Below are positions 36,044 to 59,394 of a stretch of DNA of 64,000 nt, in pieces. The notes below the pieces were generated by a model. It was not told where the DNA came from. It saw only the letters and a program-made list of their open reading frames with translations, and did no database searches. Position numbers and translations under genes: made by a program. Position 1 is the stretch's first letter. Each line of letters opens with the position of its first letter. Source of the DNA: Thamnidium elegans (Eukaryota > Mucoromycota > Mucoromycetes > Mucorales > Mucoraceae); the NCBI GenBank assembly GCA_025201345.1, contig JAIXMG010000037.1, positions 62,001-126,000 of the forward strand. Reading direction: 5' to 3'.

Positions 36044-36047
36044 TTAA

Positions 36048-36481: not shown

Positions 36482-36485
36482 TTAA

Positions 36486-37750: not shown

Positions 37751-37877
37751 TATAGGATTAAAAATCAGATTGTTTGTAATACTACTCTCAATTACCCTGT
37801 ATGACAGGTAAATAAGAGATAAAATATATAAATACCATTAGAATTGTAGCAGTAGATGAGAGATCATATTTTTCTTA

Positions 37878-38123
37878 ACAAATGAATAGATTTTAGAAAA
37901 AATAATGATACAAATGAGATGAGAATGCTCATACCTTACTAAAATTCAGAACACACGGAAGAAGAAACTGCTTTTAAAAAGGAGACAATATATTAGAGTG
38001 TATGAATAGATAAAAACAATTTTACAAAGACGCGTGAATATTACCATACTGAAAACCACACTACACGTGGTGATACATGCATTTCATGGCCTGTTGATTA
38101 AAGAATAGTTAATAAAGTGTTAT
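37878..38123 (+). repeat. 245-bp dispersed repeat, copy 1
   Basis: It starts ACAAATGAATAGATTTTAG and ends AATAAAGTGT. It matches 54856-55095 over the whole length with scattered substitutions and small gaps. In copy 2 it begins exactly at the stop codon of a coding relic, so it is probably a 3' UTR or adjacent intron of the unknown family. Confidence 0.75.
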
Positions 38124-38423
38124 GTTTAATAGTTGAAAAAAAAAAGATAATATATAAAAAAGAAGGTAAAAAAAAAGTGGTAAAAAAATAAAAATATGCG
38201 AAATGAGTAGATAATAATGAATATCTTTAGTTTTTCGTTTGTGGGTAGCACTTGACGCGCCCGGTTGTTATTATCAGACATAATACTTGAAGAAAGTAAA
38301 ACCTGATGTATTCAAGTAATATTAAAGTAATATAATTTATACATAATTTTATACAAGTGTGATACCTGTTATCAACTTACATAAAAGTATATACAGATAT
38401 AATGTTAGCTACATATTACTTTA

Positions 38424-39401
38424 ACGGTTTTCTTAGGGACCACGGCGCAAATCATTTGGACCAAGGCGGTGTGTACATAAGGTGTCTTGGATCGAGTACC
38501 CCACGTTGCGAAAATAACTGCGTGCACTTCCGTGGCCCGAGAAAGTTTTGGTTCCTGAACTGCGTCAAAACAAAAGTTTAAAAGCTCAATGAAGATAGGT
38601 ATAGGAATGTAAAGAAAGATATGCTCGTAGAATGTGAATCCAACAAGAACATGTATGTAAAGATTTTGGTTTCGACGTTGTCAGCCTAGAAAGGAGCATA
38701 AAATTAGATATGTATGAGTATAGAAGAACGATCATGTCTATTTGGTTTGACTATCCTGACTGTGTTCAAGTTGTTGCGGATACTTACAGCATACCTATAT
38801 GTACATATCCCGACGCCGGGAATAAAAGACGTCTTTATGAACCACTCACTTCAGGTTCCTGTAGAACCAAAAGTAAAAGTACGGCCATACCGCCTTCAAA
38901 ATATAAAAAATGCACTCTGGTTGACTGTCGAGTTCGGCCATAGACGTATATCATATCCTTCTGTTAGCCATATGTACTTCCGCGTAGACGAATCCTATGC
39001 TACGTTGCTTAAATCGACATGGAATCTCTTTTGGCAATTTACCAAACATACAGAAGATAAGCCTTTTGACGCAGAAAAAGACGAGCTTGTTGTAATCGAA
39101 TCTTCCGATGAAGAATAATAATTTTTTTTCTCTTAATAAACTATATTTTATTTACCTTATTTCCTTTATATTTTCAGAGAAAGATAATAAAATACGAAGT
39201 ATAGTATGAATACGAGACATAAAAAATGGTTTTAAATATTTTATGGTGTGTATAAGTAATATAAAATAACAAAAATAACAAACAACTCTAAAGTTTTAGT
39301 TTTCTTTGTTAACGGGAGTGCACGTAGTTATTTTTCGCAACGCGGGGTGCGCGATCTAAGGCACCTTATGTACACACCGTCGTGGTCCCTAAGAAAACCG
39401 T
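38424..39401. mobile_element. TIR element A, CTTAGGGACCAC family
   Basis: This 978-bp element is flanked by TA (38422-38423 and 39402-39403). The termini ACGGTTTTCTTAGGGACCAC are inverted at both ends, and homology between the two ends extends about 110 bp inward (GTGTGTACATAAGGTG, TTGCGAAAA and GTGCAC blocks), with about 20 extra bases in the left arm. One 134-codon ORF (38714-39118) occupies the centre. The same termini delimit a second element at 46597-47298. TA duplication suggests the Tc1/mariner group, but the terminal sequence is not one I can place. Confidence 0.8.
38714..39118 (+). CDS. hypothetical protein carried by TIR element A
   Basis: This is an ORF of 134 codons, starting MSIEERSC and ending in an acidic tail, VVIESSDEE. 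It lies entirely between the terminal repeats and reads outward through the middle of the element. It has no transposase hallmarks (no DDE/D pattern, no helix-turn-helix I can see). A second overlapping frame (38710-38943) is probably a shadow. It could be a captured host gene fragment or an accessory protein. Confidence 0.4.
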   Translation: MSIEERSCLFGLTILTVFKLLRILTAYLYVHIPTPGIKDVFMNHSLQVPVEPKVKVRPYRLQNIKNALWLTVEFGHRRISYPSVSHMYFRVDESYATLLKSTWNLFWQFTKHTEDKPFDAEKDELVVIESSDEE

Positions 39402-39480
39402 TACTTTAATCCCTCTGTACTACGTTATAACGATTGATAAATATGTGTATAACAAAGCATGTCGTAACAGTTAAAAGTGG

Positions 39481-41251
39481 TACAATGCACTTGCTTCTCT
39501 TGCCAATATTTCTGCTCAAAATTTAGTTCACCATGTTTCTGAAAATTATACAAATACACTTCGAAACTATATAGAAATCGGATTAAAAGAAGTCTTCGTA
39601 AGCATCATACATTAACAGAAAAGAGAAAAAGAGAAGAAAAAAAAACTAACCTTTTCATTTTTATGGCTCTAGAATTTGAATGCAAGTGATATTAATACAT
39701 TCTGCCAATATGTTTTTAATAATTCTGTTAACTCATCCATCGGTGTAACATGGCTAGAAACCTTACAAAACACACCTGATAATATCACTTTAGTCTACAC
39801 TATTATCGGTGCAAGTAGAATTACAAACGAACCTGTCGCCATGACTTTGATAGCTACTAATCCGGGAATTCTTCTGCAACACATGTATCAAATGTTGCTC
39901 TATTTTGAAGCATTCAATAATGACAATATCCGAACTTTCAACGAGGTCCAGACAGAAGCATCGTACGCATAGATGAAGCAAGTCTTGAGCAGAAATGATC
40001 TTTTTAAAGTATTGAACAGAAAAAAAAAGAAACAGGTTGTCATTCTTGGCTTTTATATCTATAGGTGATAACGTTAACTTTGAAAATGCCTTAAGATCGG
40101 ACGTTGCTCAATATGAATACATTGTGGATCTAATACAAACAATACGCAACCAAATTCTTAATTCCAAAATTTACCTAGACGACAATAATGAGAATCGTTT
40201 AAGTATAAGAATTCAAGATTGTTTCAGACCTGATATCGTGCTATCTATAAAACAATACAAGCTTTTCTTTCTCGTTCTAATATATTCATTCACTCGCAAA
40301 TATGTAGAAATAGATATTGCGCATTTAAGATCTTTATTGCTTAAAATTCAAAGAGAAACCCAAATACCAATGGATATATTAAATTGAAATTGAAATCGAA
40401 ATAATGACGAAAATGAGCTGAATATTACACTCGCGCAGGGTTCAAAAAAAACAAACCTACATATTCTAAATTACAAAACGCGAATCTCCAATTTCAAGAA
40501 GCAGAACAACGAATTACAACTCATAAAACTGCTAATTTAGAAAGATTCATGGAATATGTTCATTCCGTTTAAAACAATTTAGATATCCTTCTTCAATTTT
40601 ATGACCATTGTTTTACTGCGTTAAGGTTTTTAAATTACATAGGTAGACAACGTGCCAATGCAGAAATGGTGAATATATTCGTGAATGGAGATAAAAAGTA
40701 CTTGAGGCGGGAATTCAAACAGACTGGTAGAGACAAAAAGAGAGGAAATCCCAAGAAGAAAAGAAAAAAACGAAGACCAGTAAAAAAAGAAAAGGGAAAG
40801 GGGAAGGCAAAACTAAAGAAAAGAAAACTGAGACCGTTTGAACCAGATAACCGAATACCTTTGGTAGCCCTTGGGGATGCTGTTTTTCCTACGAGTATGA
40901 AAGGAACAATTCCTGGTTTGGCACGTCGTTTGGTGACGGTATTGAAAAAAGCTAAGGATGAAGGTCTTTTGGTGACTGTCTCAGTTACATAGTACATGAC
41001 TTCTAAGGTAAGCGAACATAACTTAAGTAATTATTTTCTACATAATATTTAAATAGACTTGTTCCAATTGCTCTGGAAACAATACAGAGAATGTCAGAAT
41101 CGACGGTGCTTCTTTGTTTGATGTGTTGCATTACTTAAATCAATCCTGCAATACCTTATGGCAAAGGGATATCAACGCTTCCCGAAACATGCATTCCATT
41201 TCCTGGAATGTAATTATAAATCACGAAGTTTCTTCAAGATTCCCAAGATAA
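39481..41251 (+). pseudogene. Fanzor (TnpB-like RNA-guided nuclease) relic, copy 1
   Basis: It is recognised from its C-terminal half: ANLERFMEYVHSV (about 40535), LLQFYDHCFTALRFLNYIG and QRANAEMVNIFVNGDKKY (40580-40705), a Lys/Arg-rich linker, ALGDAVFPTSMKG (40868-40905), VTVSV-stop-YMTSK (40970-41007), an intron 41008-41056, then TCSNC, SCNTLWQRDINASRNM and a stop at 41249. In Fanzors the segment before YMTSK should read DEY; here the aspartate and glutamate are lost and a stop (40990-40992) stands in their place. Another stop interrupts VHSV-NNLD (40570-40572). The upstream reading frames (39481-40387, with an intron-like 39599-39675) are weaker and no RuvC-I motif was found. It is inactive by inspection. 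Confidence 0.8.
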
Positions 41252-41730
41252 TAATACCCTTCTCAAGTCCTAGTATCAAAAATTAGTTGACGTTTACAAT
41301 GTAAGTTTACATTTTTAGAATATCTGATACTGAAAACAAAAAACTGACTTGCCTATTTTATAACATTAATGCCTAGGCGTGTACAATGCCTTAAAAACTC
41401 TAAACTAAATCAAGTCCATTTCAGTTTTTTGGTCGATCTTTGTATATTACTGTGTAACATGCAATATTCAATTCTCGGTTCTATCACCGACAAGAAGCGG
41501 GTAAAAAGTAGGTTCTTTTTTTCACTTAAAAATAAATCTATTAAATTCACAGTTACTAGTTTAAATAAGAACTTTATAATGTAATAAATGTGATTTTTAA
41601 TTATTCAATAGCGTCATTAAGTACTCCTTATTATTGTTCGATATATATTTTTATATAAAAAAAAAAAACTACATCTTTTCTTCTTTTTTTTTTTTATTGT
41701 TTTCTTAATTATATTGGGTCAGACAATAGA
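41252..41730. other. spacer before the GPI-type protein gene
   Basis: No credible gene. The ORF at 41369-41584 has no family features. T-rich tracts at 41660-41710 probably belong to the promoter of the next gene. Confidence 0.35.
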
Positions 41731-42609
41731 ATGCGTGGTGATAGTATAATCATTTTATTAGTTGTAGTCACGATGGTTGCCCAGGTCGCTTGGGCCCGTT
41801 GTATCTGTGACCCTGCGGATACGCTGTGCTTGGATAGTTGTGGTAGGTTAATTGTGATACAAGAAATATATGTATATAATATAAATAGATTTTGTATTTA
41901 ATATTTTCTCCATGTGTTAAATTATCTAAATTTGAATAAAAAAGTGAACAGTGCTAGAGACTGTATAGAAGGATGTGATGGAAAAAGTGGTGATTCTTGC
42001 TTTACTAGTTGCATTAATGTTCACTGGCCTGGTGCTACTTTTGAAGATGCCGGTATTGTTGAACCAGTCACTTCACAAATCATTAGTAAAAAAACAGAGA
42101 GAACTCCTACTACAAACCATATGGTTTCATTCCCTACTACGACAAATGCGGTAGGTCCATTACCAACTGCAGCAGCTGCTACTACTGGCCCTGCAGATGA
42201 TTTAATTCCTTTTTTAATGTCAATATTTGGCGGTTTATCCGGCCCCTCTTCAAGTTTAGTTGCTGCTGTACCATCTGCTTTACCTAGTGTTTTAACTTTA
42301 GATAGTAGCGGTATACTAAATGTATCTTCAATTACTAGTCAGTTTTCTATAAGTACATTAATTCCATCTTTTACCACTAGTAAGTTTGGATGTATTTTTT
42401 TTTTTTTTTTTTTTTTTTTGCCGAGTTAAATTGACAATATTTATAATATAGCTCATACAACCGTAACTAGTCTAGTTACAGTTACTCCGAACCCAATCTC
42501 CGTTTCAGCTACCAATAATAACAATACTTCACATGGTATCAAAAACCGCATTGATCCATGGGCTCTCATTATTACTTTTTTTTTCTCTTATTTACAACAT
42601 TTAGTTTAG
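41731..42609 (+). CDS. secreted Cys-rich, Ser/Thr-rich protein, probably GPI-anchored
   Basis: There are three exons: 41731-41846, 41952-42379 and 42452-42609 (233 aa). A signal peptide (MRGDSIIILLVVVTMVAQVAWA) is followed by a compact Cys-rich region (about residues 23-62; eleven or so cysteines, CICDPADTLCLDSCG and CIEGCDGKSGDSCFTSC). A long Ser/Thr/Pro/Ala stretch (70-205) would be heavily O-mannosylated. The C-terminal hydrophobic segment (PWALIITFFFSYLQHLV) after a hydrophilic spacer resembles a GPI-attachment signal. The first splice uses GTTAAT at 41847, chosen because it keeps the frame into SARDCIEG. The family is unknown to me; a cell-surface role is inferred from the architecture. 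Confidence 0.75.
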
Positions 42610-42723
42610 TATAAAATTGTAAGAAAGTCTTTATTATGTATGTCGAGAATATAAAAGAAGGAAGGGGAGAAATAAAGTGATAAAAAAAAAGGTATTATAT
42701 ACATTAGAGAGAAGAGTTAAGCT

Positions 42724-44123
<1,400 letters not shown>

Positions 44124-44391
44124 ATTATATATAATGTATTTGTTGTTGTTTTTTTATAAAAAGAAAGAACAAGCAGCAAAGAAGAAGAAGAAAAAACGGA
44201 AAAGGTTTGATTTTAAATACAAAGGTTACCCATAACCATTTTCACGTGCAGAACTATTGTGCTACAACGTACCTGAAAGCCCAACAAAAACTTTAAAAAA
44301 AAAGAAGATGAAATATATAATCATGATTAAATACAAATCAAAATATAGTATCGTCACCAGGCAATACTGTGAAATCATGAGATACTTTTTC

Positions 44392-44423
<32 letters not shown>

Positions 44424-45263
44424 GATAATCAAATTTTATATAATACAAATGACACAAACCACGGTACACTTTCTTTTAACGCTATTAAAAAAAAAAAGAT
44501 GACCGGAAGATCAATATCAGAACCCCATTCATGAACGTACTTTAAACTGATTGGACACGCGGTTCCTTACAATCACATACCCTAAGACGGAAGATAAAAA
44601 ATAGAATAACAAAGTAAATAAAAAAGATATTAACATTGTAAAGTTCGGCTGATAATTAAACCATTTTTGTTAAATGTAGCGCCATCCACCCTCACTGAGA
44701 TACTCGACGGATTGGGTTTAAAAGTTTTAGGCTGTTCTCAAGCACAGAGTTGTCTTTTTTTATTTTCTTTGAAGCAGAGTATAATCAAGAGCCTCAAACA
44801 GATTCATACTCATTCTTGCCAATGGCTTTTCCTTGTCCGTCTTTAAAAAAGTACAAACTCATATTATTTCGCTATAAAAAAATGATATAAACTCTAGTAA
44901 AGTAAAAATGCTTACCTATAAATAGTAAATATTATTAGTTCTTAGAGTAAGAAAATGATACGTACCTTTAGAAGTATATAGAGCGGAGATGAAGTAGACA
45001 GAAAACATATAAGTATCTAAATCAGAATAATTAGTATTCCATTTGAAGTGCGCATTTCATTTTACCTTTTTATATATTTAATAGAGCTTATTAGATAACG
45101 GTAGCAATAAGAAAAAAGTTAGCTATTTTTATAAAAGATATACATAAAAAAGTGAGAAAACAAGCCTAAAGTTTTAAAATTAGTAATTCGTATTTAAAAA
45201 CATTTCGGCATATCTACTTATTTGACGTATCTTTAAGCTAACTATATACTTATTTTATAAACT
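44124..45263. other. gene-free interval
   Basis: About 1.1 kb without a recognisable gene; the start is the ECT1 promoter side. A 24-T run lies at 44400-44423. I see no repeat shared with other parts of the window. Confidence 0.4.
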
Positions 45264-45700
45264 ATGTCTAACCAAAGCACATCTAACAATAGCACCCCTT
45301 CCCTTCACTGTTAATAACTGGAGAACGGTACTCAACGGTAGCCAAAGAGCTCTTAACTATCCTTGTGGAGGAAACAAGAAATATTACACTGAAGTAAGAA
45401 ATGTATTAATACATTACAGCATAAATCATCCAGATCAATAACGCGATTAATTAAAAAAAGTGTTATAACCAACAAAACTATAGAAGACATTGTTAGATAT
45501 ATCTAAACGTAAATTATATAAAGATTAATCCAGTGGTATTAGTAGTATAATGTTAACTGTTCCTTTGGATGGCACTATCTCTGAAGTGGACGTTTCCAGT
45601 GGGATCGATTGGTATTCTTCTGACGTGCAAGTCATTATGGAAGATCCTTCATCAGTTGCCGATGTCGAAGTTGATGAAGACTTGGATGAAAGGTAGTATA
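45264..45700 (+). pseudogene. degraded coding relic of unknown family
   Basis: In plus-strand frames interrupted by stops one can read MSNQSTSNNSTPS, then VLNGSQRALNYPCGGNKKYY with VRNVLIHYSINHPDQ (about 45335-45440), and after stops SSIMLTVPLDGTISEVDVS leading to an acidic end VADVEVDEDLDER (45540-45696). Composition is protein-like and unlike the surrounding spacer. I do not recognise the family. It lies 530 bp upstream of Fanzor copy 3 and could be part of the same mobile unit or unrelated debris. Confidence 0.35.
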
Positions 45701-46223
45701 AAACCAAGTTATTTCTATTAAGACCAGGTAATGAGTAGAAGTACCTGTCGAGCAATTGGGTCGCTCTATATATAAAACTAGTAGCGAACGTTGCTCCGTC
45801 AAATTGACAAACGAATGAACGCAATTACAGATAATGCGCAGGACCAAATCAAAACGATTGCCTAAAAATGATATATGTGAGTGATTCGCGCAATACATAT
45901 ATATAAATACCTTAAAAAAATGACAACCAGATAAATCAGCATATCAATGGGACCACAATAGAACCGTTTTCGTTAGTATGTATTTCCAAGTTTATATTGA
46001 CGCTTACTTACTTGTGTTTGATTTCATTTTCTAACTAAAACTGTATGGATTTATCTTTTCATAAACCCTAGTAAATAAAAAACACTAAAACCAAAGGACT
46101 CTCAAAAAAAAAGGGGGGAGTTCTCAATAAATCAATAGTATAAATTCTATAAATCGTTTTTTCTTTCATAACAGTGCACAATATACTTTTTCTTTACGTT
46201 TTCGATACCGATATTACTCTTAG

Positions 46224-46582
46224 ATGCCCAGAATAGTCTTATATCCTGAGCAAGAAGCTGTAATTTTTGGTGATTGAATGTTTTTTATAATGATGGTGTT
46301 CCCTTCATGGCATTACCTATATTGTGTATAAAAACCTGAGACGAAGAGAACGGTTCGGGGGAGCTATGTTTAATAGACATAAATGAGTTTCGAACTTCTG
46401 TAGTAAGTGAACATCATTCAATTGATATAAAATAGAGAATTTATAAATTAATCGCTTTAACATAAGTTTGCAGTCAATGTAAAAATAAGACGAACGCTGC
46501 TCGAAACATGTGGCATATATCCTCGTTGATCTGGGCAGGACATGGAAGGCCTGGAGTATTTTGCAGGCAACAGCAAAAATAA
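46224..46582 (+). pseudogene. Fanzor relic, copy 3: internally deleted derivative
   Basis: It begins MPRIVLYPEQEA, matching the first residues of copy 2 (MPRLILYPEPEA at 55890), and jumps directly to VIFGD-stop-MF, the GDGMF block that lies about 2.6 kb downstream in copy 2. It then keeps the frame-shifted LIDINEFRTS block (46370-46395) and ends with NAARNMWHISSLIWAGHGRP (46476-46540). About 75 bp holding the zinc-ribbon cysteines of copy 2 are also missing. Roughly 85% of the gene has been deleted while both ends remain, as in MITEs derived from autonomous transposons. A TIR element lies 15 bp further on. Confidence 0.7.
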
Positions 46583-46596
46583 CTAGTTTTTTTTTA

Positions 46597-47298
46597 TCGG
46601 GTTTCTTAGGGACCACCGAGTTAATTCTTAGGGACCACAGGGGTGTACATAGGGTAGCTCGGGATTTTTTTTTTGTATAAAATTACGTGATTTTATTGAA
46701 ATTAGATAAACGTATAAATTTGTCGTTTAGAGTTTCGAAAAAAGTAATAAAAAGTGAAGAAAGGGGGTGGGTGGGTGGGTGGGTGGGTGGATGGGTAGGT
46801 TAGAGTTCTATGACTAAACATTCCGTTTTTACTCGGTTGTGATATCATTGGTCTTGTCTATCGAAATGAGTGAACGGGATATTGACATCTCAAAAAGGGT
46901 TATCGCCTGCTGATCTATCCAGAAAGACTGGTCGAATATACACCGCCAATGGTAATGCCAAATAATTTCAAGAACGGTACCAAGTGACAGAAGGATGTCC
47001 TCAGGTATCTGTTGACAGGTCTTGTCATGCAAAGTAAAGAGCGCAATCCATACCGTTTCTGGAGAAGGAAACGTGTCCTTAAGATTCATATCTTCTATTG
47101 CTTTTTTCCAAAGAGTCCATTTATGAAAGCAGGAAACAAAGAAGTGTTCATTAGTTTCGGATTCTGATCGACATATACCACATAGGGAGTTAGTACAAGA
47201 ACTGTTTCTTAGGGACCACTGGGTACCCGATCCTGAGCTACCCTATGTACACCCCTGTGGTTCCTAAGAATTAACTCGGTGGTCCCTAAGAAAAACGT
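46597..47298. mobile_element. TIR element B, CTTAGGGACCAC family
   Basis: The ends TTTCTTAGGGACCACCGAG (46601 on) and its complement (to 47298) continue as an inverted repeat of about 65 bp containing GGGGTGTACATAGGGTAGC. Each arm has the CTTAGGGACCAC motif twice, and a further copy in plus orientation at 47209-47221 makes the right arm a hairpin of its own. TA precedes the left end; the right flank is diverged. The interior holds a G-rich GGGT array (46763-46800) and a fragment of LINE coding (46829-47205, minus). It is related to element A at 38424-39401 by termini and by the GTGTACATA-type second block. Confidence 0.75.
46829..47205 (-). pseudogene. LINE ORF2 C-terminal fragment (zf-RVT) inside TIR element B
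   Basis: The minus-strand frame, open through the element, reads CGICRSESETNEHFFVSC and then HKWTLWKKAI, the zinc-binding segment (CxxC-x8-H-x4-C, followed by LW) found at the C-terminus of non-LTR retrotransposon polymerases. The following 95 residues (VWIALFTLHDK, LEIIWHYHWRCIFD) match the usual helical tail. No reverse transcriptase core is present. It was probably captured or inserted and then trimmed. Confidence 0.65.
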
Positions 47299-47379
47299 TT
47301 AAACTTTCCCAAATATTCACTTACTCTTTCTTAATAACCTGTAAAATAATTCCTTCCAAAAATAGATCTTTTCCCCATC

Positions 47380-47447
47380 ACGCGTGCAAGTAGATTGCAG
47401 TCACAAATAAACCGAAGTATTGTAAATGTTTGCCCGATTTAACGCGA
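47380..47447. promoter_or_regulatory. MCB-like cell-cycle elements upstream of CDC6
   Basis: ACGCGT, the MluI cell-cycle box, lies at 47380-47385, 117 bp before the CDC6 start. A variant, TTTAACGCGA, which also resembles an E2F half-site, lies at about 47438-47447. Fission yeast cdc18 and budding yeast S-phase genes use such sites for G1/S transcription by MBF. Confidence 0.45.
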
Positions 47448-47501
47448 CTAACAAAATTTTTACTTCCTCTTTTTTTAATTGTCCCACTAAAAATAAATAA
47501 A

Positions 47502-49318
47502 ATGTTAAGACAAACCAGATCAAATAAAGTTACTTCATCTTTAAAAGAATCCTCTGGTAAAAAAAAAAACTCCCTTCATCTCTTTATAATTCAACAATAA
47601 CACCTTTTTTTTTATTTATATAGGAACAAAAAGAAAAAACATTGATTTAGAAAACTTGCCTTCTCCACCATCTTCTCCTAGAAGAAAGACAATTAAACCA
47701 GCCTTACCCGAAACACCTAAAAACGTTCGAAATATCACTAGAGAACTTCAGCTTGCTCAACGTAAATTCATTATAGTATATAGGTCTAAATAAACCACAC
47801 TAATTATTTATTTTTCTTTTAATTAGTTAAATCACCTAGTAATTCCTCAATATACTTAAAGACCAAGTCAATAAATGAAAAGGAAAATTTATACCAAAAA
47901 GCAAAGACCGTATTTCGACGTACAGCTATTCCTTCTCGATTAATTGGTAGAGAAAATGAGCGAACACAAATGATGAATTTTTGGAAGACTCATGTATTGC
48001 AAAACCAAGCTGGTTGTTTATATATTTCTGGTATGCCAGGTACAGGTAAAACTGCCATGTTAACCGAAGTAATGCGGCTGGTAGAAGATGATGTGATGGC
48101 TTTACGTACACATACTGTAAAGACTGTTGTTGTCAATTGTATGAGTGTAAAAGAACCTAAACAAATCTATGCTAAATTGGTAGAGGAATTAAGACCTACT
48201 GCAAAGACTCCCATTCAATCAGATGTTGTCAAACAAGCTGAGGAACTTATGAATGCTAAAAAGAATGTACTAAAGTGAGTTTTATTACACCACAAAAAAA
48301 AAAAGAGAGAGAGAATACTCATTTAATTAATGTAAATATATATAGTGTTGTTATATTAGATGAAATTGATTCTTTAATCACCAAAGACCAAGACGTTCTT
48401 TACAAGATCTTTGAATGGGCTTCATTACCTACATCACAACTTGTACTTATCGGTATTGCTAACGCATTGGATTTAACTGACCGTATCTTACCTCGTTTAA
48501 GAGCAAAGAACTGTGAACCACAATTATTAAATTTCAACCCATATCAAGTTTCGGAAATTTCTAGCATTATTAAGGATCGTCTATTCTCACTTGTAGAGGA
48601 TCCGCAAAATCCATTCGGTCCTGCACCTAAACCAACACAAGGTACAACACCACCCTTAATTATGCCTATGGCCATTGAATTCTGTGCCAGAAAAGTTGCT
48701 TCTTCCATGGGCGACCTAAGAACTGCTTTAGATGTTTGTAGACAAGCTATCGAATTAGCTGAAATGGATTATAAAAAAAAAAATAGTAGTACTTCTGTAC
48801 TTGGTGAACAAAAGTCCAATACTTCGTCTGTAGTAACTCCTGTTCCTATTGTTACAGTTGCGCATGTATCAAGGGTATTAAATATTGTATTTGGTAATTC
48901 AAATGTACAAAGATTAAAAGAGTTAAACTTGCAACAAAAGATTGTATTGGGAGTTATTCTGATTATGATTCGTTCTTCTACTACCAAAGCAAACAAGAAG
49001 GATGTATTAACTGTTGGCAAAGTGAGTATTAAAAATATCTACTTTTCTTTTTTACTTAAATTTATATAGTTTCGTGAGCAATATAGTGCTTTATGCTCAG
49101 ATAAAAGTACAGCTATCACTGCAGTCTCTAGAACTGAGTTAAGTGATTTATTATCCTTGTTGGAAACACAAAGTATTCTTACTTTAGGAAAGAGTAAAGA
49201 AGATCGAACTAGAAAGATTCAATTGAATGTACAAGAATCCGAAATTATTCAAATGATTAACAGTATGCCCTTCTTAAAGGACTGGATGGATGGAGTCGTT
49301 GAAAAATCTGGCTTTTAA
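47502..49318 (+). CDS. CDC6: replication licensing ATPase Cdc6/Cdc18
   Basis: There are five exons: 47502-47556, 47624-47761, 47827-48274, 48346-49021 and 49070-49318 (521 aa). Cdc6 joins ORC at origins and loads MCM with Cdt1. The N-terminus is basic and Ser/Pro-rich with CDK-type sites (LPSPPSSPRRK, PALPETPK). Walker A GMPGTGKT is at about 133-140, Walker B VVILDEID at 215-222, sensor 1 LIGIANALDL (about 245), the Arg-finger region LPRLRAKN, and sensor 2 MGDLRTALDVCRQA (about 340). A C-terminal winged helix follows (LNLQQKIVLGVIL ... SRTELSDLLSLLETQSIL). The length and the SRLIGRE opening of the AAA+ domain favour Cdc6 over Orc1, which is longer and carries a BAH domain. Confidence 0.94.
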
Positions 49319-50010
49319 AAAAAAACTTCTCCTTCATCTCTTTGTTCCATTTATATACAATATACCATTATTTCTGTTATCACTTTTTTTTTTTCTAGTT
49401 GTATATCTGCTATCAATTTTTATAATAATTAAATACTTATTTGTTCAAAAGTTTCTTTTCTTACACTAAATTCAATAAATATGATCCCAACTACCGGAAT
49501 ATGCATAGAAGATTCAATTTTATTACAAAAAAGAAAAAGAAAAATAAACTCTGTCGCAACTTGTTGAAGATTGTTCTTTAAATAAAAAAAGTTATCTCCC
49601 TTGCATCGTTTGTCATTTACATTTAGTTGCCCGCGCCGATTCCAAGCACTTTTTTCATGTGTGTATTGATATCAAATGTAAATATAGGGCTTTATCAATG
49701 TGCGTACATGGTACCGAAACCTGTTTTTATTATTATCACAAATCGCATTTACATACATTTGTACTCGGATCGTGTCCCGCTAGCATTAAAATCTGACACT
49801 CTCAAATTTTTGTTTGTTTATATTTTATACAAAAAAAAAAAAAAAAAAAAAAACCATAAGCTATAAAACATTATGGTATAAATAAATAAAAAAACGTAAT
49901 ACATACATATAATACAAAAATGTATACGCAATAAAAGGATGTAGATAGTATAGACAATATATATATAAAGGAGATAGAAAACAAAAACAAAAAAATATTA
50001 GAAAAAAAAT
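49319..50010. other. convergent spacer, CDC6/LAMMER kinase
   Basis: About 690 bp between two stops. It has A/T-rich sequence, an A22 run (49831-49852) and no convincing gene; the 79-codon ORF ending in poly-Lys is an artefact of that run. Confidence 0.4.
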
Positions 50011-50912
50011 CTAAGTATCTTCATCGTAAATCATATGAAAGAAAGGATGACGAAGTGCATCACGAGCAGAAATACGTTGACTTGGTTCATATACCAACAA
50101 CTTTTTCAATAAATCTATCAAATAAGTATTATGTTCGTTTGTAGGCGGAATCATTTCCTAAAGATACAAAAAAAGTTAGTACACTTGTAACAAGCAATAA
50201 TAATAATATACTTACAGCAAGTGGTTTTAATGCACTGACATATTTTTTACTTTGTCTCGTAGTCTTTGCAACAGGATATTTTAGTTTTTTACTTTCCTTA
50301 TAAAAAAACTTTTGACCTTCCTTGTTAGCAGATAAAACCATTGGTACGGGAACAGAACCCAAGACCGAATCCATCATAGCCAAATGTTCAAGATTATCGT
50401 GTGTTTGAAACAAGGCATCACCAGTAAAGAATTCGACCAGGATACAACCAATAGACCAAATATCACAAGGATAGGACCAGCCTAAGCCTAAAATGATTTC
50501 AGGTGCACGATAATGACGCGTAGACACAACGGCTGAATGATAATCTTTTTCAAATGTAGCTGAGCCAAAATCAATTAATCGTATATCGCTACTTTTTAGT
50601 AATTGTTCATCTGGGGGATTCACGAACAAGATATTCTCGGGTTTTAAATCGGTATGAACCAATTTTAAGTCATGTAAGACTAAATAAAATGTTACAAAAC
50701 AAAAACAAAAACAAAACAAAAACAGAACTAAAAAAACTTACATGCCACACTGGTAAATAACTGCTTTGCAAGTTGTTGAATTTGACTATGAGGAAATGGT
50801 TTAAACTGATTTGATTTTAAGAAATCAAATACAGATTGACCTAACAATTCAAATACCATACATATATGATTACGATGATCAAACCATTCCACCAAATGAA
50901 TACACTTACTAA

Positions 50913-50952
<40 letters not shown>

Positions 50953-51862
50953 GCTTTTTTTTTAGTATAGCATAATAAATAAAATTAAAAAAAAAGCCTT
51001 ACTTGAGGTTTAAAGGATCGTGCTGTTTCAAAGTATTTAATACCCTAATTTCAATCTTACTTGCGTCCCTGTATTTGGGTATAGCTCGAATAATTTTAAT
51101 AGCACAAAATGTTCGTCTAACCCGATCAAAGCATTCAACTACTTTACCAAAAGTTCCTTGACCTAACAATCTCATAATTTTATCTACAAAATTGATATAA
51201 TAGTTTTTTTTTTTAAAAAAAACATGATAAAAGGGGAAGGGGAGGGGCTCTAGATAACTTACATTGTGGCGTTAAAGATTCATTAGGTCGGACAAGGTAG
51301 TGCCCATCTTTATCATCGTAAACCTATTTATACCATTCGTTATATTATTCCTTTATTTATTTTTATCTTTATTTACCTCTGTAGTAGATACAGTTCTATT
51401 AGTGGTAGTAGCGGCAGTTGTTGTAGCTGTGGTGGTTATGGTATTATTATATGTATGATTAATTTTATTTGGTAATTTATTGGATATATGCTGCTGCTGT
51501 TGATTATATATTTGGCTTGGAAATAAATGAAATGCCAGTATACCTTTAAAAAAAACTTGTTAATATAATAAATTTTATTTTACTCAGAGAAAAAACTTAC
51601 TTTGGTTCATTATATTATTGGCATTGTTATTATTATTCCATTTTTGTCTCTTCAAGTCTGGTTGAAATTGGTCGGGATGATGAAGAATTCGTTTTTTAGG
51701 ATTGTAAGTTGCATAATCAACAGATAAAGATGATGGAGGTGGAGGCGTAGGACTATCTGAAATCACAATAACTTCCTTTGGATAACCATTCTTATAATAG
51801 TCTTTTTCCCAACCTATGTTTTTCCTTTTCTTTTGAACTTGTCGTACTTGTTGTGGTTCCAT
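50011..51862 (-). CDS. LAMMER (CLK-type) dual-specificity protein kinase
   Basis: There are seven exons: 51601-51862, 51377-51543, 51263-51323, 51003-51183, 50742-50908, 50216-50679 and 50011-50157 (482 aa). The family (fission yeast Lkh1, yeast Kns1, animal CLK) phosphorylates SR proteins and regulates splicing, adhesion and stress responses. The N-terminal 160 residues are Pro/Asn/Thr-rich. The kinase domain (about 165-478) has [21 protein letters not shown] (HTD instead of HRD, typical for the family), [34 protein letters not shown] and the hallmark [11 protein letters not shown]. The intron 50909-51002 contains long homopolymers and a strong A/T hairpin. It converges on CDC6. Confidence 0.94.
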
Positions 51863-52324
51863 TGTTAAAAAAAATTAGATAGAAAAAAAAATAGGTGAGT
51901 TTTAAAAAAAAAGAGATTTTTTTTTGGTTTCGTAGAATGGAATGTAGTAGCGATTAAGTAGAACTAGTTGATTAGTATACTATGTAAAAGAAGAAGACAA
52001 AAGAAGAAGAAGAGGGAGTTGGAGTCAATACAAAAAATAAAAAACAAAAAAAAATGTATAAAGTGGAGAATTAAACTTATTTGGGCAGTCCAACGTCGAA
52101 CCAACCAAAGAAACGCACCCGCCAAAAAAATAAAAATAACAAGGATATGTATGCTCCAGACTCCTAATTTAGTTTTTTTTAGAGAAAAAAAGGATTGATA
52201 CAATGAATGAAAGTGGATATTAGCTTTGAATTCAGCCACATTCATTATCTTATCGTTACTTGAATTACATCTTAAAACAAATATCGTCATTTTAAAAAAT
52301 ATCTTTTTTATCCCTTTTTTTGTT

Positions 52325-52369
52325 GTTGTTACTAGGTAACAACTGTCAATAGACAGTTGCCATAGCAAT
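52325..52369. promoter_or_regulatory. paired RFX X-box-like palindromes upstream of the LAMMER kinase
   Basis: GTTGTTAC-TAG-GTAACAAC (52325-52343) is a perfect palindrome around TAG, and GTTGCCATAGCAAT (52356-52369) is a near-consensus X-box; they are separated by 12 bp. RFX factors bind GTNRCC-N(0-3)-RGYAAC. They lie about 460-510 bp upstream of the kinase start, in otherwise featureless DNA. An ORF at 51964-52380 overlaps them but has no family resemblance. Confidence 0.45.
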
Positions 52370-52763
52370 TTTGATATCACAGGAATATCAGTGGTTTAAA
52401 TGATTCAAAGTTTCCCTCCTTAGTTTAAAGAATAAAAAAAAAAATCCTCTTACAAAAAAATCCTGTCAATTTTTTTTTACAAGTTTCATGAACAAAACTT
52501 GTGACATAAAAAGAATACTTCGAATAAGCTGGGTTAAAAAGAGTTGTTTTGTATGTTATTAAATATGTTTTGAATGTTTTGTAGAGATTGAAGTTCGTAA
52601 ACTGTCAATGGATGAGGGTTTTGCAAGCATGCGGTAATAGTGTTTTGAATATCTACAGTCACGTGTAATAAATGTTTGAACGACTTCATTTTTTTTAAAA
52701 AAAATAAAATACTTAGCTTATCTTTCTTTCGATATATATCTACTTTTTGATAAATAACATAAA

Positions 52764-53485
52764 ATGGTACTTTTTGATACTACTAATAAAACTAATGAGA
52801 AGCGAAATGAACTTTCAAATTTCGAAAAAGGCCAGATTATTGGCCTACATCAGCATACCGAATACTCATTGGGCAAAATCAGTAAGCTTTTGGGTATCCC
52901 TAAGTCTACAGCCGCTAGCATCGTAACCCGCTAGAAAAACAAAGGAAGAGTTACAAACAAATCTCGACCTAGAAGACCTGAAAACTTTCAGAATCGGATA
53001 AACGTCTTCTGTCCAGAAATATTCGTCAAGAGACCTTTCAACCTTACAATCACTTTATTGGAAATTTGAACGACGCTGATATTTGCATTTACAGGAAGAC
53101 TTTCGCTTCGTATTTGAAGGAAATGGGTTTCGGTTCGTTTTCTCCTGCTAGGAAGTCCGGAATGGCACCTACACATATGGAACAAAGCGCTTCCTGTCAT
53201 ACTGGCAAGTATGTGACCTGGTGGAAGTCAACCCATCAAATAAAGGGCTTTGACTCTTGGCCTGCGCAAAGTCCGGATTTAAACCTTATTGAGCACCTTT
53301 GGACTGCTCTGGGAAAGCGTATTGAGCATGTTAGACACCGTATACTTAATACCGAGTAGCTCAAGGCGCGTCTTCAAAATGAGTGGCGAAACTTAGACAG
53401 CGACTTATGGTCGAATTTAGTGGCAAGTATGTCTAAAAGATGTCAGTCTATAAAAGACAATAATAGTGGCTGCTCAAAATACTAA
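52764..53485 (+). pseudogene. Tc1/mariner transposase relic
   Basis: It begins MVLFDTTNKTNEKRNELSNF and continues EKGQIIGLHQHTEYSLGKIS, KLLGIPKSTAASIVTR, a helix-turn-helix of the Tc1 type, followed by a stop at 52933 and KGRVTNKSRPRRP. Later frames give YNHFIGNLNDADICIYRK and a C-terminus with WPAQSPDLNLIEHLW (about 53255-53305), the segment of the third catalytic acidic residue, then LKARLQNEWRNLDSDLW. The part with the first two catalytic Asp residues is missing, and several stops and frame changes are present. Terminal repeats could not be identified. Confidence 0.85.
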
Positions 53486-53665
53486 AAAATAAAATAAATT
53501 ATTTTTTGTAAAAATAATACTCTTTTCTTTAAGGGTTTAAAATTTGGTAGTGTTTGAAAGACTTTTTATTAACTAGCTTTACTGTTTGAATTTGGATGTA
53601 TATAACACTTTACAAAAATTAATTAAAAAAATTAAATTCGTCCGGATACTTATTACTCATGACTG

Positions 53666-54011
53666 TAACAGGTACTTTACATGTAAAAACGACTTTTTTT
53701 AAAGGAAATTGTAATATAAATATCACGATGATTAAATAAATCCTTTTTATCATAGCCGAATAAACCTCGTTTTATTATAGTTGAATAAACCTCATTTTAT
53801 CATAGTTAACTAAACCCCTTTTTATCATGATTAAAATCACTTATTTATTCCATCTTTTTTTTCTTTCCTTTTTTTTTTAACAATGAATTCATATACAAGA
53901 AAGTACCTTTTATATTATCAAATGTCTAAATATTTCCTTATGATATGGTGGTGTCGATGTAGGAGTTTCGCTAAATCGGCACTGGTGGTGTAAATGGTGG
54001 TGTACCAGGAA
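53666..54011. mobile_element. TTAA-flanked MITE, copy 2 (truncated)
   Basis: In reverse orientation it matches 36048-36370 of copy 1 at roughly 85-90% by eye. The right terminus (complement TTCCTGGTACACCACC) is followed by TTAA at 54012-54015. The other end stops at the internal ACCTGTTA block, so the second terminus is missing. It has four tandem ATGATAAAA-GTTTATT units against three in copy 1. Confidence 0.7.
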
Positions 54012-54015
54012 TTAA

Positions 54016-54865
54016 CCTTAACAAATTGGGCGCCGGGCACAACATTCCAAGCACTAGCTTTTGAAAAACATACTAAATGTGAAAACCTTGCTTCTTGTTT
54101 AAACGCTCTGGAAAGTGCTTTGAATGATATCGGTAACTTGGACTTGAAAAAGAATACCAACAGTAATGTCATTCTGTGGGCTAGAAAAAAAAAAAAAAAA
54201 AGCACAATTAGTACGCGTATTTGAACGTTTTTTGTTTGCTTTTTTTTCTCGTCTATTGCATTGAATAGGCTATTAATAGTATCTTTTTTAGCTTTTAGAT
54301 ACATCATTGATCAAACAATACTTTTACTTACAGACTTGGAAAAAGCTTATGGTTGACAATAAGTACCTTAAAATGACTCTCAAAAATAACCAGATTAGAA
54401 ACGAAATCGCAGTGGCTGAGGATTTAGCTGAAGTAAATAATGATACCCTCCGACATGCCAATAGCAATTACGAAGGTGCAGATAATCAAGAGAGTCAAAG
54501 CACTTATAATGTAAGGAAATAGGTTATTGACCTCGAAGATAGAAACTAACTATTTTATAAAGGATGAACTTGACGAACGTAACTTCGTGTTCAGCATGCT
54601 AAAATCAGGAGAAAAATGGTATCTTTCCAATGGCAAATACGTTGACGACGAATTGTTTATATTTGGATTGCAGTGCGAATCCGGTCACCCAAGTAGATCG
54701 TTTATTATTGATCCTTACGACAGCAATTATACTACTTATAACGTCTTCAGCCAAAAAGAGTTACAAGAAATCATCAATTATCAGAAGAAAAGCCTCCTTA
54801 CAGCTCCAGATTCGTTGAAGCTTTTTTTAAACAAATACAATAAAAAAATACTAACAAATGAATAG
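54016..54865 (+). pseudogene. relic of an unknown multicopy protein family (N-terminal half)
   Basis: Plus-strand fragments in two or more frames: LTNWAPGTTFQALAFEKHTK and NLASCLNALESALNDIG (54018-54190), LMVDNKYLKMTLKNNQIRNE (54345-54520) and a 112-codon ORF (54527-54865) with KDELDERNFVFSMLKSGEKW, YLSNGKYVDDELFIFGLQC and HPSRSFIIDPYDSNYTTYNV, and QKELQEIINYQKK. From memory such blocks recur in a large uncharacterised Mucoromycota family that also includes the C-terminal blocks at 34551-36043; this is unverified. A poly-A insertion (54184-54200) and stops break the frame. Confidence 0.5.
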
Positions 54866-55095
54866 ATTTTAGAAAAAATAATGATACAAATGAGATGAGA
54901 ATGCCCATACCTTGCTAGAATTCAGAGCACAAGGAAGAATAAACTGCTTTAAAAAAGATACAATATGTTAGACTGTATGAATAGATAAAAACAATTTTAC
55001 AAAGACGCGTGAATATTACCATACTGAAAACCACACTACACGTGATGATACATGCATTTTATGACCTGTTGATTAAAGAATAGTTAATAAAGTGT
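54856..55095 (+). repeat. 245-bp dispersed repeat, copy 2
   Basis: It is homologous to 37878-38123 and starts at the stop codon of the preceding ORF. The order of blocks is kept (GATACAAATGAGATGAGAAT, ACAATTTTACAAAGACGCGT, ACCATACTGAAAACC, AGTTAATAAAGTG). Confidence 0.75.
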
Positions 55096-55109
55096 ATATT
55101 AATTACGTT

Positions 55110-55373
55110 ATGCTGCGAGTTTTGCCCAAGAAATAAAACGCAAGTTAATCTTCGAAAAAGAAAGAAAGAAAGAAAGAAGAGAGAAAAATGGAAAAAAAAT
55201 GGCTTTAAAGCCGCAGCAGTTTGTTACACTACATGAGACCAAATCTATAAATGAAGAAGTTAAAAGATCCTGCCTCACCAGCTTGGGAAACATGTGGTGT
55301 TAACTTTCCACGTTCGTTTGATGCAACATTGTATCAAAGTGAACTTGAATTACCGGACAACAATAATAGCCGG

Positions 55374-55410
<37 letters not shown>

Positions 55411-55889
55411 GGCTGTTGGTATTACTGGCGTGTTCTCTAACGTGAATAGTTCCAAGTCAAGTGGCCTTACCCTCGGCAGAGCGGCCTTCTTCTTTTATTT
55501 CTTGCTTTGGCTGTGTGATCTCATAAAATTTATTGCCTAACCATTTAACATTTTATTTTAACGTATCTGATAATACCCTCTTCCATTATTTTACCTGTTG
55601 AACTGTTCATCCATTACAAATCATTCGTTCGAGTACCTCTTTTGTATTGACTCATAAACATGTATTCCTGTTCGTATTGGAATGCTTTTCCTTTACCGTG
55701 TTCTATAAATAATAGAGACACTATTTTTATAGCTAGTGATCTTTAGGGATTGCAGCTTAAGAAAAATGTTTTATAAACCAGATAAATAATCACGCTGAAT
55801 AAACTTTATATAAACCCTTCTTCCTTTAAATTCTTTTTTTATCTGCTTTTGTTCTTCTTAACTTTTCTTTTCCATGTATGCTATTGTAA
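55110..55889 (+). other. spacer with short coding debris
   Basis: An ATG at 55201 opens MALKPQQFVTLHETKS, running to a stop at 55302, and an overlapping frame reads CGVNFPRSFDATLYQSELEL before a 28-bp A run (55374-55406). The pieces look protein-like but are unassigned. The rest, to the Fanzor start at 55890, is A+T-rich and featureless. Confidence 0.35.
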
Positions 55890-58800
55890 ATGCCTCGATT
55901 AATTCTATATCCTGAGCCAGAAGCTTCACTCCGAAGAAAAAGACAGCAAAAGTACGATGAACTTGCAGATGAGGAGGATACAGAGCAAACATATAAGGGT
56001 AAATGTTACCAGAATTTAATCATATACTTTAAATAAATCTCTAATATTGTTTTCTTTCTAAAGGAAAAAAAAAAAAAGAATACTCCTGAAGAACTATAGG
56101 CTAAAAAAAAAAGTAGACGGGAAAGAGATAAAGAAACAGCCGAGAGTTCTTCTACAGGAAACAAAAGATCTGTAACTAATAAAACTATGATTCAAAAACT
56201 GAACAGAATATTCGATGGCAGTTTCGAATACTACACCATATATATTCCCTTTAACATGGTAGTTAGACCGAGATTTAAAACTAGGTTCGTGGCCAAGATA
56301 CAAGAAATATTGCCCTTCATAAGAGAAATAATCGTAAAAACCCAATTGTTCGTGAACTACTATATTATGATTAACTGTCATCAAACTATCCCGAATGATA
56401 TATTCACATAAACTTTTTGGTACAGTCTGTGTCTGGTTATTGGCTGTAGACTAGCCCCGACGGCTTGCCAAGAGAGATATAGGTCTGTTCCTAATTTAGT
56501 AAATACTTATAATGACTTTCTCTCCCGGTTTCTGACTTCAATTAAACCTATTGGGGCTGTAAGAGGGTATGCACAATGTCTGTCTGCTGCTTGTATTACA
56601 ATCAGCTCAACATATAACAATTACTACGTAGAAACATATAAAGGAAAATTACAAAAGTATTTGATTTATAAACTATCTGTAGATTTTTCTGAAATTGCTT
56701 CTTACATCATTAAAAGGATTATGAATGATTATGCATTACTTTTAATTACCAACATAGAAGAGCCCCACGAAGATGTTTTTGATATAATTGAAAATGAACA
56801 ACTTCGAATGAGATTGAGGATTTTTATTGATAATGGTTCGCTGATTAATAATATAAAGGATAAATTGCCTATATCTACTAGACGTAATCCATTAACTAAA
56901 GCAACAATTTAAAGCAATCCAGGCTCGGTAATACCATTATTCAGCGAAATAATTAATGAATATGAACAATTGCAAGAAAGATTTAATGTAACTGTTTCCG
57001 AAAACATCCTTCAGGTGACAGAAAAGCTATCGAGTCTAGGAACAGACCTCTTACAAGCAATACAAGCAAATATTGCCGCAGTAGAATCTACAATCAGTAG
57101 CACGAGAGTCCTTGTAAATTCCATTGAAATAGCTGTTGCGGCGTCTCGATCACATTATGAAGATGAGGACTCGAAATTATTATTAACTACAAGCATTAGA
57201 AACGTACGGGAAGCATCAATGACCTCAAACGTCGTGTCATTCAATTCCAATATAAATATAGATGTCATTTTGCGTCCTTCAAGAGTTATCACAGTCAATT
57301 GATAATTCTTCTACTAATATACTTGCTACTATGCAAATTACTCTAACTCAAGCAAGGGATAATGTCGCTGTTAGCGGAGCCGTCATTCTTCAAGCTGAAG
57401 CTTGCCGGAACGCTTAGGAAAGAATGTTACAAATATTTCAAGATTTGTCTGACTCCGTAAAATTACACCATCAAATTTTTTCAGGCGTTGAATCTAATAC
57501 TCGTACAAGACCCATCCGATTGCAAAAGTTATTTTCTTTATTTCCAACGTCTGGGCTGCAATGGAGGTTTATAAAAATAGATGGCAATAATTTAAATTCT
57601 TTTACGCCTCAAGGCAATACAGCTGCAACTGATTATGATAGCACTCTTACCAACTTCTATGAAGCTTTCGATTTCCGTAAACTACCTAATTTGAAGATAA
57701 GATCGTAAGTAACACTAAATACTGCATAGAAAAAGCAATGTGTCTAATATCACTTGATAATAATAGGGTTCAAGATTTGTGTAGTTTGCCTAATACAATG
57801 AACAAGATCTTCATCAATGAAGTCAAGACAGACAGATATACTTGCCAATTTACCTTTGTTAGACGCAGAAAGGAAAACCCCATGATAAACGCGGGAATGA
57901 AACTTGAGTTGCAAGATTTTACACAAGAGGAAATCGATCTTTACTTTAGGCCTTGTACCATAGATCCAGGCAAAAGTCAAGTTTTTACCAGTTACCATGG
58001 GAATGGACAAATACGTAGAACGTCTACTAAAGAGTATTACTCGTTTGGAGGTACACTTTCAAGAATGGGATCACAAGATCGGATTAAAATAAGAACAGGA
58101 ATAAAAACTGTTGAGAACAACATACCATCGCCAAAGACAATCAATATGACAAAATACCAAGATCACGTAGTTTACTTGCTTTTAATAATGAGTATCTTGC
58201 TCGAATTCTATGGTTTCGATACTTGTGAAAATAGATGGTTGGAAACAAAAAGCAAAGAAAGAAGCTGTTAATATTCTTATAAATGGGGGCAAGAAATACA
58301 ACAGCAACAAAAGAAAGAAGAAGAAAACGGCGAAGAATAAGAGTCGTATAAGAGATAGTAAACTAAACAAGCAACCTTCTTCAATTCCTTCAGCCACTAA
58401 TCCCGTTGAAAGCTCTTTCACCAGGTAATTTTACTTGAATAATACTGTATTAATCACATCCTGCATTTTTAAAAACATAGAAATCTTTGCCGGAAAAACA
58501 ATTTTAATGAAGGTGATAAAACCAAAATGCCCTTGGTAATCTTTGGTGACGGAATGTTTAATAAAGACGGTGATCCTATTAGAAGTAATCTCCATGGTAT
58601 TACCTCCATAGTATATAAAAATCTAAGACGAAAAGAGTAACACGGGGAATTATGTTTAATAGACATCAATGAGTTTCGAACTTCTGTAGTAAATGGACAT
58701 CATTCAGTTGGTATAAAATAGGGAATTTATAAATTAATTGCTTTAATATAGGTTTGTAATAATTGCAAAAATAAGACGAACAGTTCTCTTCCAAGAAGTT

Positions 58801-58945
58801 TTAAAGTCCTCCGTTGCACACATTGCGAAACACTCTTATGGAATCGTGGTACAAATGCTGCTCGAAATATGTGGGATATATCCTCATCAATCTGGGCAGG
58901 ACGTGGAAGACCTGAAATATTTCGCAGGCAACAGCAATATTTATT
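55890..58945 (+). pseudogene. Fanzor (TnpB-like RNA-guided nuclease) relic, copy 2, the longest
   Basis: It starts MPRLILYPEPEASLRRKRQQ. Fragments follow in changing frames: VVRPRFKTRFVAKIQEILPF (56250-56310), GKLQKYLIYKLSVDF (56643-56690), RPIRLQKLFSLFPTSGLQWR and FIKIDGNNLNSF (57500-57605), DFTQEEIDLYFRPCTIDPGK (57915-57975, the RuvC-I aspartate in IDPG), STKEYYSFGGTLSRMGSQDR (58024-58085), NILINGGKKY (58270-58300), VIFGDGMFNKDGDPIRSNL (58536-58592), LIDINEFRTS (58654-58683), an intron 58684-58752, then VCNNC, RCTHCETLLWNRGTNAARNM and IWAGRGRPEIFRRQ. The zinc ribbon CNNC/CTHC is complete. Stops (for example 58638-58640) and frameshifts make it nonfunctional. The section 56970-57302, a coiled-coil-like ORF, fits the family least. 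Confidence 0.82.
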
Positions 58946-59394
58946 ACTTTTTATGCTGCCACTTTGAATGTGGTGTGCCCAGCACTTAATGGTTTTACAC
59001 AACAAAGGTAAGCTAAAAAAAAATAGTTGGCTTTTAAAATATTTTCTAAATTTGTATCAGTTTTCTTTGGGAGTGTAGGCACCTTACCCTACGAAACTGT
59101 AAAAGTACTGAGTATAAAATATAAGACTGTGATTACTAAATAAATATTATTGTATAATAATATTTATATAATAAAAATAATAAAGTAAAAGGAATAAGTC
59201 AAAATAGGATAATGTTTATTTAGTAAAAAGATAGAGACATTTATATAGTTGTAAATGTTATTGCTCTTGTTATAGTTATAGAATATAGTTGAAAGAGGAA
59301 ATGCTAGAATGGAAATCTACAGTGGTACCAAGATTAGCCAGCTTTATCGGAGTACCACAAGAAACTCACTTTCTTGTGACTTTCATAGGACAAG

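Follow-up and report, generated by a model that had tools for sequence, protein, structure and literature searches.

Fanzor1 proteins, among them SpuFz1 of Spizellomyces punctatus, are described as RNA-guided nucleases whose guide RNA lies at the end of the element that carries them (PMC10432273, PMC11423790). The fingerprint that sets Fanzors apart from most TnpB proteins is given as a DPG motif together with a Glu placed six residues ahead of the zinc ribbon's first Cys (PMC10711439). Within the order Mucorales, Fanzor1 families of Mucor circinelloides, Rhizopus and Phycomyces (MCi, ROr and PBl; Bao and Jurka 2013) are reported as DNA transposons, some of them transposase-less (PMC3627910), and the structures of PpFz1 from Parasitella parasitica, a Mucorales Fanzor1 with a cyclophilin-binding insertion of its own, have been solved (PMC11423790). 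Here we describe three places in one 64-kb stretch of Thamnidium elegans contig JAIXMG010000037.1 (the window), a member of the same order. All three are, with high probability, remnants of DNA transposons that once carried a Fanzor1 gene and are now dead. A first-pass annotation of the window had named the same places (39481–41251, 46224–46582 and 55890–58945) as broken Fanzor copies beside DNA transposons. Their identity, their decay and their DNA-transposon setting are all borne out; the places were right and the elements are longer, as listed below. L-numbers denote related places in the T. elegans genome (L001–L072 are cited) and P-numbers denote public predicted proteins.

37876–41383, + strand: copy 1, a Fanzor1 transposon remnant of lineage A-prime; the 5' tip is missing and the 3' end, ...GGCGTGTA, lies at 41383.
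~44901–46597, + strand: copy 2, an internally deleted lineage A element; its 5' part matches L039 and L044, and 46260–46597 matches most A elements.
54842–59077, + strand: copy 3, a lineage A Fanzor1 transposon; the 5' tip is missing and the 3' end, ...CTTTGGGAGTGTA, lies at 59077.

When 13 family proteins or open reading frame (ORF) pieces were compared with the window by tblastn (E ≤0.01), we obtained 30 matches, all of them within 40417–40734, 46306–46567 and 56067–58928. The 26 control queries (each of the 13 shuffled once and reversed once) gave no match anywhere in the window at E 0.01. Since 12 of the 13 queries derived from searches begun with copy 3, the matches of copy 3 itself are partly circular. 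The one independent query, D_C, was taken from L003, a locus found with the zinc-ribbon model PF07282, and it matches copy 1 at E 2.8e-7 and copy 3 at E 0.002.

We also built a RuvC profile (A1) from nine sequences: the copy 3 window piece, six public proteins and two genome copies. Searched against the PDB, it gives a single match, SpuFz1, with E 2.5e-7 and an alignment that takes in the DPG motif. A single-sequence search reaches the same residues of SpuFz1 at E 0.28, and P0008 as the query returned nothing at E 1. No PpFz1 chain was among the PDB matches, its inclusion in the searched set being unconfirmed, and a PHROGs search with three window pieces gave no match.

Scores with PF07282 (the TnpB/Cas12f zinc ribbon) weigh against the assignment, because those of all window pieces fall under the curated cut-off of 26.3 bits. 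ORF 41057–41248 of copy 1 reaches 21.2 bits (E 3.3e-4) and ORF 58752–58964 of copy 3 reaches 17.6 bits (E 0.0044), and the copy 2 piece 46466–46579 has no match. L003, from the same genome, scores 42.2 bits.

In copy 3, the DPG motif, the alternative catalytic Glu and a C4 zinc ribbon stand in the correct order.

55890–58964, + strand: copy 3 Fanzor1 gene, from the start codon (MPRLILYPEPEA...) to the zinc-ribbon exon; stops and frameshifts, some of them possible introns, break it up.
57963–57971, + strand: RuvC-I DPG motif, part of the Fanzor fingerprint.
58671–58673, + strand: alternative catalytic Glu, which falls six residues ahead of the first zinc Cys if the intron is removed.
58689–58751, + strand: GT-AG intron of 63 nt, predicted from sequence, covering two apparent stops.
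58752–58964, + strand: zinc-ribbon exon, CNNC...CTHC...WNRG, under the PF07282 cut-off.

The predicted intron accounts for two features that had earlier been taken for breaks in copy 3. Its position is the same in copy 2 and in L042, and predicted protein P0008 reads straight through there. Further upstream stops may be introns or lesions. The lesions of copy 3 comprise an in-frame stop (58638–58640) and a frameshift near 58240. Relative to L039–L041, 160–180 bp are missing at ~57290, and the third catalytic Asp, present in L044, L049 and P0008, is replaced by Gly. Among Helicostylum proteins, ORF 57690–58268, which holds the DPG motif, matches P0001 at 73% identity (85% of the ORF covered), P0003 at 63% (76%) and P0008 at 68% (48%). 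Judged by eye, the N-terminus of copy 3 is like those of P0028 and P0035. Compared with L039 over 155 codons, copy 3 shows 21, 26 and 22 changes at the three codon positions (dN 0.14 and dS 0.24, nonsynonymous and synonymous divergence), a pattern that would fit mostly neutral or relaxed decay.

Copy 2 retains less of the gene.

46224–46582, + strand: copy 2 Fanzor gene; the start, MPRIVLYPE, is joined to the C-terminal part by a large deletion.

The Glu of INEFRTS is present at 46385, the second zinc CxxC and the RD motif are gone, and the 3' splice site of the intron is altered. An IDPG motif had been placed in this copy; by position, it belongs to the copy at 55890–58945, and the 46224–46582 copy has lost that region.

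Copy 1 is interrupted by a nested insert and carries three recognizable remnants of the gene.

38425–39400, strand unassigned: nested Mutator-like element (MULE)-like insert of 976 bp, with terminal inverted repeats CGGTTTTCTTAGGGACCACG and a 9-bp target duplication TTACTTTAA.
40417–40734, + strand: Fanzor RuvC remnant (tblastn E 4.7e-10 with P0002), beginning just past the lost DPG.
40990–40992, + strand: stop codon in place of the alternative catalytic Glu, in an x-Y-M-TS context.
41057–41248, + strand: zinc-ribbon remnant with WQRD, under the PF07282 cut-off; the third catalytic Asp is kept (41168–41170).

About 390 bp are gone from copy 1 at 40416, where translations of L062 and L072 encode GVDPG/GIDPG, and one zinc Cys is replaced relative to L058 and L066. 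In the x-E-x-TS landmark claimed for this copy, the Glu is replaced by the stop codon at 40990. L058, L062, L063, L066, L067 and L070–L072 are collinear with copy 1. The 3' end is common to L066, and beyond it the flanks differ. In L058, L067, L070 and L072, the MULE-like insert is missing and 38422 joins 39400/39401; the insert recurs in the A-prime element L066 with 95% identity. Its 134-residue ORF (38714–39118) has no Pfam match. A possible second MULE-like insert, with ends resembling those of the first (GGTTTCTTAGGGACCAC), lies at ~46600–47297 beside the 3' side of copy 2.

Taken over the genome, the RuvC-I DPG motif is present in copy 3, L010–L023, L062 and L072; it is lost from copies 1 and 2 and was not found in the eight loci of a separate family, D (L001–L008). 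All eight family D loci, which lack the intron, have the alternative Glu at the six-residue distance from the first zinc Cys, as does copy 3 if its intron is removed. The Glu itself, whatever its spacing, is also visible in L012 and L016 of a further family, B. The C4 ribbon with its RD motif is whole at the family level and in none of the three window copies; RD itself survives in copy 1, is replaced in copy 3 and has been deleted from copy 2.

The three copies represent two lineages. The final part of copy 2 is 78–83% identical to copy 3 in DNA, and both belong to lineage A. Copy 1 (A-prime) shares ~30% identity with lineage A proteins. At their 5' ends, the two lineages are much closer.

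37876–38120 and 54852–55095, + strand: 5' segment common to copies 1 and 3 (blastn, 94% over 245 bp, E 1e-106).

The 5' part of copy 3 is also common to L040, L042 and L045. A ~230-bp 5' tip of the A element L042 is 75–86% identical to those of A-prime elements L061, L062, L063, L066, L067, L070 and L072. The 3' ends differ, being ...CTTTGGGAGTGTA in A and ...GCCTAGGCGTGTA in A-prime (seen in copy 1 and L066). Since both copies 1 and 3 and the L042 and A-prime carriers share 5' sequence, two unlike Fanzor genes stand behind a single 5' end.

From their ends, the carriers were likely non-autonomous elements of the Tc1/mariner type, the transposase type being inferred from TA-ended inverted repeats (TACAC...GTGTA). 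No exact inverted counterpart to the 3' end was found, and the imperfect 5' end was recovered from other copies. This 5' end, TACACACCCAGAGGTTTT, occurs within two mismatches at 14 genome places (reversed-pattern control, 2), 11 of which begin with TA. The A-type 3' end of copy 3 occurs within two mismatches at eight places, all with TA (control, 1). Flanks were unlike at the 7 of 14 5' ends and the 7 of 8 3' ends examined. L042, which is internally deleted, keeps both ends, has TA at each and shows no longer duplication outside. Some internal deletions are common to separate places (one to L040 and L041, another to L058, L066, L071 and L072), and the multiplication of internally deleted forms suggests that the moving enzyme acted in trans.

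Several points weigh against a Tc1/mariner-type carrier. Three of the 14 5' ends begin with CA, L042 is the only element seen with both ends, and the terminal TA could belong to the repeat rather than to a target duplication. Shared internal deletions could stem from segmental duplication, flanks having been compared for some places only. Among the Pfam-searched ORFs inside elements, a subset of all ORFs, there was no transposase, and end-sequence scans, which alone covered this point, identified no autonomous partner.

The carrier could instead belong to another DNA transposon superfamily such as MuDR, Harbinger or a Crypton-like group, as in several Mucor Fanzor1 families. In the Mucorales, Bao and Jurka describe Fanzor1 elements of the MuDR type (9-bp duplication) as well as Crypton-related and Harbinger-associated ones (PMC3627910), and both the missing transposase and the three 5' ends without the T of TA would agree with such a carrier. 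We nevertheless think it rather unlikely, given the TACAC/GTGTA ends with unlike flanks and the absence of a longer flanking duplication in L042. In addition, according to a survey of the Mucorales for which T. elegans was sequenced, Tc1/mariner is the order's largest group of transposons, and the window contains the remnant of a DDE_3 transposase at 53066–53356 (E 3.7e-6), just under the cut-off of that model. The main text of that survey does not contain the words Fanzor or TnpB (PMC7928374).

The DDE_3 fragment (27.3 bits; cut-off, 28.6) is part of a Tc1-type remnant ending in ATGACTGTA (52654–53667). Two copies of a miniature element of ~350–450 bp, with dozens of genome matches, occupy 53666–54018 and 36044–36491. 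A Csn2 match of ORF 54527–54862 (E 0.0019) is under the cut-off and was taken as chance.

That the copies are instead Fanzor2, bacterial-type TnpB (IS607-like) or bacterial contamination is very improbable. The zinc ribbon weakly matches NCBIfam IS200_TnpB (E 0.015), and in the PDB L003 is slightly better matched to a TnpB chain (E 0.036) than to a Fanzor1 chain, GtFz1 (E 0.068). Opposed to these matches are the spliceosomal-type intron, the profile match to SpuFz1, relatives in Helicostylum, Pilaira and Mucor, and the inverted ends, which IS607 elements are described as lacking (PMC3627910).

Relatives are numerous elsewhere in the genome. PF07282 finds 21 places, 19 of them above the cut-off, and a protein search with the copy 3 RuvC piece finds 50, copy 3 included. 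Merging the PF07282 places with the RuvC matches (E ≤0.001, even weak ones counted, DNA-only places left out) gives 65 Fanzor-like loci; adding copies 1 and 2 of the window brings the total to 67. Family B (L011–L023) comprises 13 loci, 95.6–98.7% identical by piece to member L012, on contigs C1, C32, C11, C21, C56, C2, C10, C26, C19, C63, C33, C3 and C31. Their ends are alike at TA (CTGTA in 12, CTATA in one), and all 13 have the DPG motif. L016 shows DPG, INEFRTS and CPNC...CNDC...WNRD in order. The 160-codon RuvC block is open in six loci, has a stop in one and is frameshifted in a run of T in the other six. Over 78 pairs, mean dN is 0.010 and mean dS is 0.015, rough values that include frameshifted copies. 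These figures fit a recent burst, and some family B loci are apparently intact, their 5' ends lying at or beyond the DNA examined. The window holds no family B copy.

Intact relatives elsewhere in the genome had been expected by the first-pass annotation. The less damaged family B, with 6 of 13 loci open through the RuvC block, supports this in part. For the window's own lineages, no intact copy was recognized among the A and A-prime loci examined, which were not all checked systematically.

The Glu and the zinc ribbon are present in all eight family D loci, the ribbon in some of them being changed or interrupted by a stop. A RuvC-I DP motif was found in none of the eight, and we therefore rejected the idea that family D is another intact lineage; LDPG is present in two relatives from elsewhere, P0012 and P0017. 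Four of the family D loci have a recognizable RDVF context, and in these the frame starts at a stop beside a possible splice acceptor, so a DP exon may lie outside the examined DNA. Codon-position changes over 28 pairs (245/245/251; pN/pS, the ratio of nonsynonymous to synonymous changes, 0.65) show no bias, leaving the idea of a maintained nuclease-dead Fanzor unsupported, and by these measures family D loci look like multiplied, decaying passengers. A ~50-bp scrap at 47298–47348 in the window is 96–100% identical to the family D element 5' end (7 of 8 loci; 38 bp in L003).

Although the zinc ribbon and two of the three catalytic residues survive in copy 3, and family D multiplied with no DP motif found, a domesticated Fanzor still serving the host, for example as a binding protein without cleavage, is hardly credible in view of the stop and frameshift of copy 3 and the lack of third-position bias both between copy 3 and L039 and within family D.

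Family B proteins have an N-terminal part, CKSCGQPGHTTSASRLCPN, with a CX2CX4HX7C motif in six of the eight loci with ORFs examined. We regard it as a predicted nucleic-acid-binding module, a zinc knuckle, of family B Fanzor1. Pfam zinc-knuckle models match it under the cut-off (E 0.035 and 0.07). The knuckle motif and a DPG RuvC segment occur together in one predicted protein each of Mucor flavus (P0028) and T. elegans (P0035). Overall, 8 of 21 protein matches have the CCHC pattern. Several of the remaining 13 are fragments that do not include this part of the protein, and in P0029, P0041 and P0043 the motif is altered or incomplete. The knuckle is lacking in copy 3, where the alignment has a gap. 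The literature searched, with most subscription papers outside its scope, contains no description of a Fanzor with a zinc knuckle or CCHC motif.

Chimeric Fanzor elements in other hosts, and a Mucor family alike in its 3' part and different in its 5' part, are described by Bao and Jurka (PMC3627910). We propose, as a tentative view with somewhat less than even weight, that the Mucorales hold a Fanzor1 clade with an N-terminal CCHC knuckle and that unlike Fanzor1 genes are shuffled behind a common 5' end, as cassettes moving between carriers.

The clustering of three copies in the window is borderline. With 67 places put at random in 34.1 Mb, a triple within 21.5 kb appears in 5.5% of 5,000 simulations (contig ends ignored), and 0.16 windows of 64 kb with at least three places are expected genome-wide. 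The test leans towards significance, since copies 1 and 2 entered the count solely as a result of close study of the window. The cluster had been taken as the trace of a past wave of activity; the borderline value, the presence of two lineages and the absence of young family B from the window leave this reading weak.

In TnpB biology, the nuclease cuts the donor site and repair then restores the element. In the living element, a Tc1/mariner-type transposase acting in trans would probably cut and paste it via its short inverted ends (TACACACCCAGAG... / ...CTTTGGGAGTGTA), inserting it at TA. By analogy with TnpB, the Fanzor, loaded with a guide RNA from the right end of the element and adjoining host DNA, would cut the emptied donor site, and repair from a filled copy would restore the element there, keeping the copy number up. 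RNA guidance and cleavage are taken here from published Fanzor biochemistry and the homing role from TnpB. The window copies are now inert.

A conserved block downstream of the copy 3 gene is a candidate guide-RNA scaffold or transposase site, as judged from alignment.

58958–59000, + strand: 43-nt conserved block (alignment A2 of seven 3' ends).

Its first 28 bases occur within three mismatches at six genome places, with none for the reversed-pattern control. Neither structural test supports a scaffold: the folding of the region has a z score of +0.85, with 160 of 200 shuffles folding equally well, and the covariation term at the 3' end is unfavourable, with a two-sided change in 1 of 15 predicted pairs. 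A guide-RNA structure at the 3' end thus finds no support.

The T. elegans genome shows several stages together: dead lineages, internally deleted passengers, a family without a found RuvC-I, a young knuckle lineage and a shared 5' end. Beyond routine annotation, the common 5' end of unlike Fanzors and the recently spread zinc-knuckle lineage stand out, and the young family B offers candidates for asking whether a Fanzor promotes homing of its transposon.

The Fanzor remnants belong to an already known kind of element. Their family shares with SpuFz1 (PDB 8GKH) the RuvC-I DP motif and its spacing to IPSxKT, and as reported for SpuFz1, numerous copies have inverted ends and numerous short ones lack the gene (Saito et al., PMC10432273). 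The window copies differ from SpuFz1 in being dead; the gene contains one intron or more, and sequence similarity is low. The MCi, ROr and PBl families are likewise described as alike in one element part and unlike in another; the duplications described for them are of 9 bp, 11–12 bp or 6 bp (PMC3627910), whereas the T. elegans elements are TA-ended and have their 5' end in common. PUl-4 encodes Fanzor1 alone and has mariner terminal inverted repeats and TA duplications (PMC3627910). The hosts of the mariner-borne Fanzor1 elements PUl-4 and PGv-1 are an oomycete and an algal virus, and it is to these elements, by description only, that we liken those of T. elegans.

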